Assembly: GCF_021732705.1 (NCBI RefSeq)
Contig: NZ_JAKFUM010000003.1
Coordinates: 372,001 to 436,000 of the forward strand
DNA: 64,000 nt
Direction of reading: 5' to 3'
DNA from: Nevskia sp.
GTDB taxonomy: Bacteria; Pseudomonadota; Gammaproteobacteria; Nevskiales; Nevskiaceae
Shown in pieces: positions 33,107 through 33,550 of the stretch. The notes under the pieces are model-generated. The model was given only the letters and a program-made list of their open reading frames with translations. It was not told the origin of the DNA and did no database searches. Within the stretch, counting starts at the first letter, position 1. Each line of letters starts with the position of its first letter. The position numbers and the translations under genes were made by a program.

Positions 33107-33196
33107 GGAGAGGTGGCAGAGTGGTCGAATGTACCTGACTCGAAATCAGGCGTGTACGCAAGTGCACCGTGGGTTCGAATCCCACCCTCTCCGCCA
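33107..33196 (+). tRNA. tRNA-Ser (anticodon CGA)
   Basis: A 90-nt gene with an encoded CCA. Acceptor arms GGAGAGG (33107-33113) and CCTCTCC pair fully, with discriminator G. The anticodon loop CTCGAAA sits on stem CCTGA/TCAGG, giving CGA, which reads UCG. There is a long class-II variable arm (GTGTACGCAAGTGCAC), and the T-arm GTGGGTTCGAATCCCAC is canonical. UCG is a likely frequent serine codon in a genome this GC-rich. A terminator hairpin starts at the next base. Confidence 0.97.
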
Positions 33197-33238
33197 TACA
33201 AAAGAAAAAGCCCCTTGAATGGGGCTTTTTCTTTTGTA
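33197..33238 (+). terminator. Terminator of tRNA-Ser, inside a long palindrome
   Basis: An 18-bp perfect stem (TACAAAAGAAAAAGCCCC / GGGGCTTTTTCTTTTGTA) with loop TTGAAT, including the T-rich strand CTTTTTCTTTT, directly follows the tRNA CCA. It works as a Rho-independent terminator in both orientations by sequence. The tRNA T-arm/acceptor (33174-33189) pairs again with 33252-33267, extending the palindrome beyond the hairpin. Confidence 0.85.
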
Positions 33239-33550
33239 CGACGGAAAAGCCGAGGGTGGGATTCGAAGCGGCGGCAGCCGCCGGGGGTTGCTGCCGGGCG
33301 CGGCCGGTTGATCGGGCAAGTCGGCCCCTTGAATGGGGCTTTTTCTTTTGTACGACGGAAAAGCCGAGGGTGGGATTCGAAGCGGCGGCAGCCGCCGGGG
33401 GTTGATCCCGGGCGCGGCCGGTTGATCGGGCAAGTCGGCCCCTTGAATGGGCCTTTTTCTTTTGTACGAAGGAAAAGCCGAGGGTGGGATTCGAAGCGGC
33501 GGCAGCCGCCGGGGGTTGATCCCGGGCGCGGCCGGGTGATCGGGCAAGTC
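33211..33550 (+). repeat. Three 114-bp tandem repeats downstream of tRNA-Ser
   Basis: Units start at 33211, 33325 and 33439. Each holds the terminator half CCCCTTGAATGGGGCTTTTTC, then CTTTTGTACGACGG, a 16-nt inverted copy of the tRNA 3' part (GAGGGTGGGATTCGAA at 33252, 33366 and 33480), a GCGGCGGCAGCCGCCG palindrome and GATCGGGCAAGTC. Units differ by few bases: unit 1 has GTTGCTGCC where units 2 and 3 have GTTGATCCC, and unit 3 has GGGCC in place of GGGGC, which weakens its hairpin. The period is divisible by three, so long open frames on both strands are by-products. Confidence 0.95.

Follow-up and report, generated by a model that had tools for sequence, protein, structure and literature searches.

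The described elements that come closest to the array reported here are the rtT repeats of the Escherichia coli tyrT operon, with their RNA (rtT or RttR), for which we know of no settled role. Behind tyrV of E. coli MG1655, the units are spaced 178 bp apart, and within a unit a direct copy, ATCCTTCCCCCACCACCA, is preceded by GGGGAAGGAT, which is the 3' strand of tRNA-Tyr (ATCCTTCCCC) in inverse form. The consensus of the corresponding Rfam family, RtT (RF00391), pairs the inverted copy with the direct copy as the arms of an outer helix. Because it is present in the E. coli unit and paired in the Rfam consensus, the inverted copy belongs to rtT. The description of rtT dates from 1991 (as cited in PMC4986893). 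A second Rfam family, the Xanthomonas small RNA sX4 (RF02223), has a consensus composed of a tRNA-Ser gene, a trailer, and an inverted copy, and was reported to be expressed in Herbaspirillum (PMC6337395); in part, this expression may be that of the tRNA transcript itself. Furthermore, the small RNAs RrA, RrB, and RrF lie between dual terminators in E. coli rRNA operons. They resemble the array in their association with a stable-RNA operon and with RNA made by read-through between two terminators, and differ from it in that the piece is not described as holding a copy of the stable RNA (PMC8144298); no shared sequence is claimed.

Anatomy of the tRNA-Ser(CGA) locus

In this study, we examined a tRNA-Ser(CGA) locus of Nevskia sp. 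within a window of 64 kb, a term used here for the whole stretch of DNA analyzed. The features of the locus are as follows.

33107 to 33196, + strand: tRNA-Ser(CGA) gene with encoded CCA (ARAGORN; Rfam tRNA model, 60.8 bits)
33174 to 33189, + strand: mirrored 3' strand of the tRNA (T-loop, T-stem, and first four acceptor nucleotides)
33197 to 33238, + strand: first terminator, a perfect 18-bp palindrome with loop TTGAAT directly 3' of the CCA (read by eye and by folding)
33210 to 33323, + strand: repeat unit 1 (114 nt, reference unit)
33252 to 33267, + strand: inverted tRNA copy of unit 1, exact GAGGGTGGGATTCGAA
33268 to 33281, + strand: G+C-rich stem-loop GCGGC-GGCA-GCCGC behind the inverted copy of unit 1
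33324 to 33437, + strand: repeat unit 2, with a terminator-like hairpin at its start (98% identity to unit 1)
33366 to 33381, + strand: inverted tRNA copy of unit 2, exact GAGGGTGGGATTCGAA
33382 to 33395, + strand: the same stem-loop, GCGGC-GGCA-GCCGC, in unit 2
33438 to 33551, + strand: repeat unit 3, with a terminator-like hairpin at its start (95% identity to unit 1)
33480 to 33495, + strand: inverted tRNA copy of unit 3, exact GAGGGTGGGATTCGAA
33496 to 33509, + strand: the same stem-loop, GCGGC-GGCA-GCCGC, in unit 3
33562 to 34362, + strand: downstream gene, mycothiol maleylpyruvate isomerase N-terminal/DinB-like (Pfam PF11716, E 1.4e-28)

A preliminary description of this DNA had placed three tandem 114-bp units behind the tRNA, beginning at the terminator, with 16-nt inverted copies at 33252, 33366, and 33480; these coordinates were reproduced and the copies are exact matches. 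Each unit opens with a terminator-like hairpin, which a spacer separates from the complement of tRNA positions 57 to 69 (tRNA numbering, counted from the CCA); the G+C-rich stem-loop follows. GAGGGTGGGATTCGAA is the reverse complement of tRNA letters 33174 to 33189 and lies there on the minus strand, inside the tRNA; a search allowing up to three mismatches found no fifth site in the 64 kb (100 shuffles: mean, 0.37; largest, 2).

The core of the first terminator, GCCCC/GGGGC followed by TTTTTCTTTT, reads as an intrinsic terminator, and the start of the array at 33210 falls within its palindrome. This palindrome was missed by a consensus terminator scan, which revealed 3 terminator-like sites in 801 bp versus 1.0 in shuffles. 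No sigma-70-like promoter was found by scan at the array; the same scan missed one for the tRNA, too. The downstream gene is located on the same strand and may be the reason for strong termination. On the minus strand lies the probable upstream gene, which encodes SLT transglycosylase and solute-binding domains.

A protein-coding reading of the array was rejected. Long open reading frames are present on both strands (33113 to 33628, +; 33146 to 33583, −; 31468 to 34581, −), but they run through the tRNA as well as the array, and the spacings in the sister arrays of the genome (116, 116, and 117 bp for GGA; 121 bp for UGA) are not all multiples of three. Such reading frames could be misannotated as repeat proteins. 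Elsewhere in the window, a second tandem repeat is found at 992 to 1285 (period, 128; 2.3 copies; 94% matches).

Sister arrays in the genome, genus, and order

The genome (4.5 Mb) contains 44 tRNA genes, and inverted copies of the 3' end were sought within 700 nt behind each of them, a distance cut short by the contig end for three genes. They were found behind three, all of them tRNA-Ser genes (CGA, GGA, and UGA), and a chance origin was therefore dismissed. The best inverted score was 16 to 18 at these three loci. None of the remaining 41 tRNA genes exceeded 10; tRNA-Ser(GCU), which lies in front of tRNA-Arg and has no array, is among them. The GGA array holds six copies at a spacing of 116 to 117 bp, the last two of which are degenerating, and the UGA array holds three copies at a spacing of 121 bp plus a partial fourth unit. 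Copy and stem-loop, searched as an exact pattern, gave nine matches in the genome, all inside the three serine arrays, and the reversed control gave none.

The preliminary description had proposed a search for the array in related genomes. It does recur: among 18 genus genomes, 8 (G000, G002, G005, G009, G010, G013, G015, and G016) carry inverted-copy units, as do other genera. Its presence is patchy, however: no array was found behind tRNA-Ser(CGA) in six genus genomes (G005, G006, G010, G012, G014, and G017), three of which carry an ordinary terminator at this locus instead. Further matches of the exact pattern, in G014 and G017, lacked a tRNA within about 1,500 nt and were taken for chance.

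Across 81 tRNA-Ser loci, each with 200 nt or more of downstream sequence and fetched for resemblance to the window tRNA or array, 16 had inverted copies only, 8 inverted and direct copies, and 9 direct copies only; since this sample is biased towards the query, the 33 loci with copies do not represent a frequency. The remaining 48 sampled loci are without anything comparable, and the array is dispensable. The non-serine rows of the copy survey (92) were mostly the tRNAs of the window genome plus loci fetched for RtT. Shuffles extend up to a copy score of about 12 (12.0 in 2 of 173), so that L156 and L161, as well as L196, L206, and L209 among the sX4 loci considered below, are doubtful. A literature search of titles, abstracts, and passages found no report of such serine arrays.

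Match between the copy and its upstream tRNA

In all three arrays of the genome, the copy mirrors the tRNA in front of it: the mirrored pairs of sequences are CCCACCCTC and GAGGGTGGG for CGA, CCCGCTCTC and GAGAGCGGG for GGA, and CCCTCTCTC and GAGAGAGGG for UGA. For 35 copies in 22 arrays of the order, a mean of 12.57 of 13 letters matched the own tRNA, and 0 of 10,000 permutations of the tRNA labels were as good, in a set that was chosen partly by match. Copies picked by GATTCGAAG alone, a selection that ignores the variable positions, were present at 22 of the 81 tRNA-Ser loci and matched in 7.15 of 8 letters versus a permuted mean of 6.22 (0 of 10,000). Twelve of the 35 copies had one to three letters off, one of these only by a G-T pair. 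At the level of sequence, the copy follows its own tRNA across isoacceptors and species.

Each of the tRNA positions 57 to 69 is complemented in at least 20 of the 22 arrays, and position 70 in 4. Measured on whichever stretch within 260 nt matched best, which belonged to a later unit in three arrays, the copy reaches position 69 in 21 of 22 arrays and ends exactly there in 18. tRNA letters 70 to 72 are TCC in all 22 arrays, yet the copy seldom includes position 70. In five arrays, the copy was the part least diverged between units (18 of 400 letters), compared to 32 of 353 in the stem-loop, 220 of 1,358 before the copy, and 168 of 910 behind, counts in which unit pairs are non-independent and in which, for unit 1, the tRNA trailer serves as the preceding part. 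Directly behind the copy, a stem-loop of varying sequence is found in 39 of 41 units, two chance pattern matches (L062 and L141) being left out, and 25 of the 41 individually reach 5% against shuffles. The stems still pair as GCCGC/GCGGC, GCGGC/GCCGC, GCCAC/GTGGC, GGCGC/GCGCC, and longer ones. The array is thus real and recurrent, and some force keeps the copy matched to its tRNA.

This force could be neutral. DNA-polymerase template switching at the terminator hairpin might have copied the tRNA 3' end in reverse, with tandem duplication multiplying the copy and repeated switching or conversion between the arms keeping the match; the RNA would then have no function, and only the terminator would matter. 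We regard this as a serious possibility, although one with clearly less than an even chance, and as nearly as likely a cause of the copy-tRNA match as the cis role proposed below. The tRNA 3' third, the trailer, the terminator, and the first copy form one long palindrome around the hairpin pivot, and template switching was reported to create and maintain RNA stems (PMC8794818). The patchy presence within the genus is also consistent with a neutral origin, as are the window unit RNAs, which are not unusually stable, and the first units, which are no better matched than later ones; at L006, L011, and L136, the unit nearest the tRNA has a mismatch and the second is perfect. The main argument against template switching as the whole story is the nearly fixed edge of the copy, at position 69 in several genera and three isoacceptors and at position 68 in E. 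coli rtT, since free switching should give varied ends unless all arrays share one ancestor. The stem-loops behind the copy, which differ in sequence and still pair, argue in the same direction.

Predicted refolding of read-through precursors

RNA folding of 33167 to 33275 yielded one hairpin (−75.9 kcal/mol; z, −10.8) that uses the T-arm and the acceptor 3' strand of the tRNA, and the cloverleaf was lost in the fold of 33107 to 33351. Transcripts up to the first anchored copy were compared with the state in which both tRNA stems are kept. The refolded state was preferred in 21 of 21 arrays, with a gain of 3.2 to 25.8 kcal/mol (mean, 14.5), this set comprising 21 of the 24 serine loci with an inverted score of at least 12 (L035, L153, and L165 lack the anchor motif). 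In contrast, 0 of 41 tRNA-Ser loci without arrays were invaded (mean, 2.6 kcal/mol; largest, 9.8 kcal/mol); these controls were 41 of the 48 copy-less loci, seven having been dropped due to masked letters, and their stretches were of fixed length. The folding ignores tRNA tertiary contacts and co-transcriptional order, and the tRNA may fold first. Isolated unit RNAs of the window showed no folding advantage over shuffles (z, −0.31 and −0.03); the z values were −0.76 to −1.57 for three isolated related units and −3.44 for E. coli rtT.

Based on the predicted refolding in all arrays and in none of the controls, we tentatively propose, at a probability somewhat short of even, that the array consists of shortened rtT-like repeats tied to tRNA-Ser that work as terminators and as a disabling tail in cis. 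RNA polymerase passing the first terminator would transcribe the inverted copy, which would capture, in the tRNA just made, the 3' strand of both the T-stem and the acceptor stem. One long hairpin would form across the terminator, and the read-through precursor could no longer be a tRNA. RNase P needs the T-stem and the acceptor stem of its tRNA, so the refolding may block this enzyme. As a repeated terminator with a disabling tail, the array would shield the downstream gene from tRNA transcription and remove read-through tRNA precursors, and RNA pieces from between the terminators, if any, would be by-products like rtT. The copy would then matter in that its sequence changes along with that of the tRNA and that, by prediction, it disables transcripts reading past the stop signal. 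Several points count against such a function: if the first terminator works, the copy would not be transcribed, isolated units lack unusual stability, the mismatched first units at the three loci named above fit a cis role of the first copy poorly, and the array is dispensable and patchy among near relatives.

The copies had also been described as antisense to tRNA-Ser, which holds for the sequence itself; the folding favors action in cis on the read-through precursor, and no support was obtained for action in trans or for the suggested role in stress signaling. If array pieces were released, they could pair with tRNA-Ser or other RNAs as antisense RNAs or sponges, which we consider improbable. 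The copy is exactly complementary to the tRNA, but mature tRNA hides the mirrored positions within its helices, and the copy tracks the directly upstream tRNA, not a common serine sequence. Neither the promoter scan nor the folding of the window units, which lack an unusually stable fold, points to such an RNA. For comparison, there is a literature on sponges from the 3' spacers of tRNA transcripts, and RtT-family RNAs were reported to be expressed near tRNA genes in Actinobacillus (PMC4986893), both of which speak for a trans-acting product.

Relation to rtT, fuller serine units, and sX4

RtT was detected in 21 of 85 genomes of the order, 11 of them above the gathering threshold, and in 1 of 14 control genomes, that of E. 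coli. Each of the best 12 RtT loci of the order lies immediately 3' of a tRNA gene, tRNA-Tyr in 11 cases and tRNA-Gln in 1. In these loci, too, the inverted copy tracks its own tRNA, though less exactly than in the serine arrays, with 5 to 9 letters out of 9 matching. Position 64 is paired in 13 of 13 loci, E. coli included, as C-G, A-T, G-C, or T-A. With the anchor fitting all 13 loci best, a permutation test gave 0 of 10,000 (10 of 10,000 on the 8 distinct rows), but this anchor was chosen after seeing the fit, and with one shifted by a single base no signal appeared, 8,747 of the 10,000 permutations doing as well. Below gathering, at 31.8 bits, RtT also matched behind a tRNA-Ser(CGA) gene of another family of the order.

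The window units share with rtT their tandem arrangement directly behind a tRNA gene, an inverted copy of the tRNA 3' strand about 50 to 60 nt past the CCA with stem-loops behind it, and a copy that tracks the sequence of its own tRNA; the E. coli copy spans tRNA positions 59 to 68, at nearly the same distance as the serine copies. Unlike rtT, they stand behind tRNA-Ser, are spaced 114 instead of 178 bp apart, and each contain a terminator-like hairpin. They lack the direct copy with CCA, i.e., the 3' arm of the outer helix, and, by reading, the consensus stretches GATGAGAAcC and GGTTCGAC. Within 700 nt behind the window tRNA, the best direct score was 8, which is background level. The Rfam model was unmatched in the window at gathering, in 33000 to 33700 at E values up to 10, and in the genome at an E value of 0.01. 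Membership in RtT was rejected for lack of a match at gathering, and the array, which looks like a shortened, serine-linked cousin of rtT, is therefore a relative in anatomy and not a member. The preliminary description had contrasted a direct copy in E. coli with the inverted one here, a distinction that does not hold given that the E. coli unit contains an inverted copy as well and that Rfam pairs both. The likeness to rtT that it suggested stands in kind, i.e., in the position behind a tRNA and in relatives with inverted and direct copies, but extends neither to the RtT model nor to a direct copy.

Such relatives were found in Panacagrimonas, Solimonas aquatica, and other genera. Like the window units, they have an inverted copy (e.g., GAGGGAGGGATTCGAA), a stem-loop (GCCGC-GGCA-GCGGC), and a terminator palindrome in front; unlike them, they keep CCCGAAGGG or a near variant plus a direct copy. 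In Panacagrimonas (L136), the inverted copy is followed by the stem-loop, then by CCCGAAGGG, and then by a direct copy that is exact. S. aquatica shows the same plan, with the direct copy slightly changed at tRNA-Ser(UGA) (L135) and decayed at tRNA-Ser(GGA) (L137). In the window genome, the UGA array retains CCCGAAGGG and a remnant, CGAATCCC, and the CGA array retains less. This graded series of fuller to reduced units links the serine arrays and rtT, and the direct copy was presumably lost in the window units rather than never gained. Homology to RtT was not evident from sequence (the fuller Panacagrimonas unit, the only one tried, gave 15.9 bits, E 0.67), and the array was therefore not filed under RtT. 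A full RtT unit is located behind tRNA-Tyr, beside tRNA-Gly and tRNA-Thr, in another genome of the genus (L142 in G011), so that both kinds of element are present in the genus; copies of the tRNA-Thr 3' end also lie behind tRNA-Thr at this locus.

The sX4 model matched window positions 33098 to 33261 with 40.1 bits, below its gathering threshold of 70, and much of this score stems from the tRNA. The last helix of sX4 pairs the C-run of the tRNA with a downstream GGGGGG, and in the window the tRNA-Ser 3' strand is likewise predicted to pair with the inverted copy downstream. In a class-wide sample, sX4 matched at an E value of 1e-4 in 133 of 229 genomes, 2 of them above gathering, and in 3 of 14 control genomes, none above gathering. 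In the 30 sX4 loci fetched, 29 tRNA-Ser genes were found; behind 10 of these was a copy of the 3' end at a score of at least 12 (9 direct and 2 inverted). At the best locus (L191), a fuller RtT-like unit with a direct copy follows, as judged by eye. Because a complete tRNA-Ser is part of the model, what is annotated as sX4 elsewhere may be the transcript of a serine tRNA gene.

More speculatively, and rather unlikely as we judge it, rtT, sX4, and the serine arrays might form one widespread class of tRNA-tethered elements. Their conserved part would be an "anti-tail" complementary to the 3' strand of T-stem and acceptor, which would co-evolve with the upstream tRNA and turn the cloverleaf of the read-through precursor into a dead-end hairpin. 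Judging from the serine arrays, the part retained after loss of the others may be the complement of tRNA positions 57 to 69, matched for each tRNA, which gives a testable prediction for the elements found behind tRNA genes in several gammaproteobacterial groups. Elements of this kind, made of tRNA-Ser and a tail, would explain why the sX4 family contains a tRNA gene. If there is one such class, tRNA maturation would be coupled to correct termination.

Integrative elements and phage matches

In G002, an integrative element now separates tRNA-Ser(CGA) from its unit. Elements of about 25 kb and 7.5 kb lie between tRNA-Ser and unit in this genome (L120, L121, L046, L047, and L048), with integrase-type domains at the unit's end (PF13356 in L046 and PF02899 in L121). 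Since the island displaces the unit, the unit probably predates it. Similarly displaced tRNA ends were seen by eye at L044 (G013) and L049 (G015).

The G002 elements, which use the tRNA 3' end as a shared core, and the report that some E. coli rtT-like sequences belong to the dispersed BIME repeats (PMC2965389) would fit a reading of the array as remains of mobile DNA, i.e., attachment sites or a small transposable repeat using tRNA-Ser. This reading was rejected after phage, plasmid, and viral scans, and we consider it highly improbable. Attachment duplications are direct, but the copies in the array are inverted, and no direct duplication of the tRNA 3' end was found within 700 nt behind the window tRNA. 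In the window genome, the unit pattern is confined to the three arrays. Viral contigs did not contain the exact pattern, plasmids yielded nothing resembling it, and the similarity to three Vibrio phage records was limited to a stretch of 36 nt in the terminator palindrome. In these phages (PP712916, PP712906, and PP712903), the stretch is 94% like the palindrome and is annotated inside a 7-carboxy-7-deazaguanine synthase gene; the match is probably due to chance or a shared terminator.

Another insertion was observed in G016, where an element of ~40 kb on contig C2 (L041, 1 to 600; L042, 40000 to 41200) interrupts a GGA unit within its stem-loop. It has TG...CA ends, an apparent 5-bp duplication (GCGGC), and an S24-type domain (PF00717) at one end, and it may be Mu-like.
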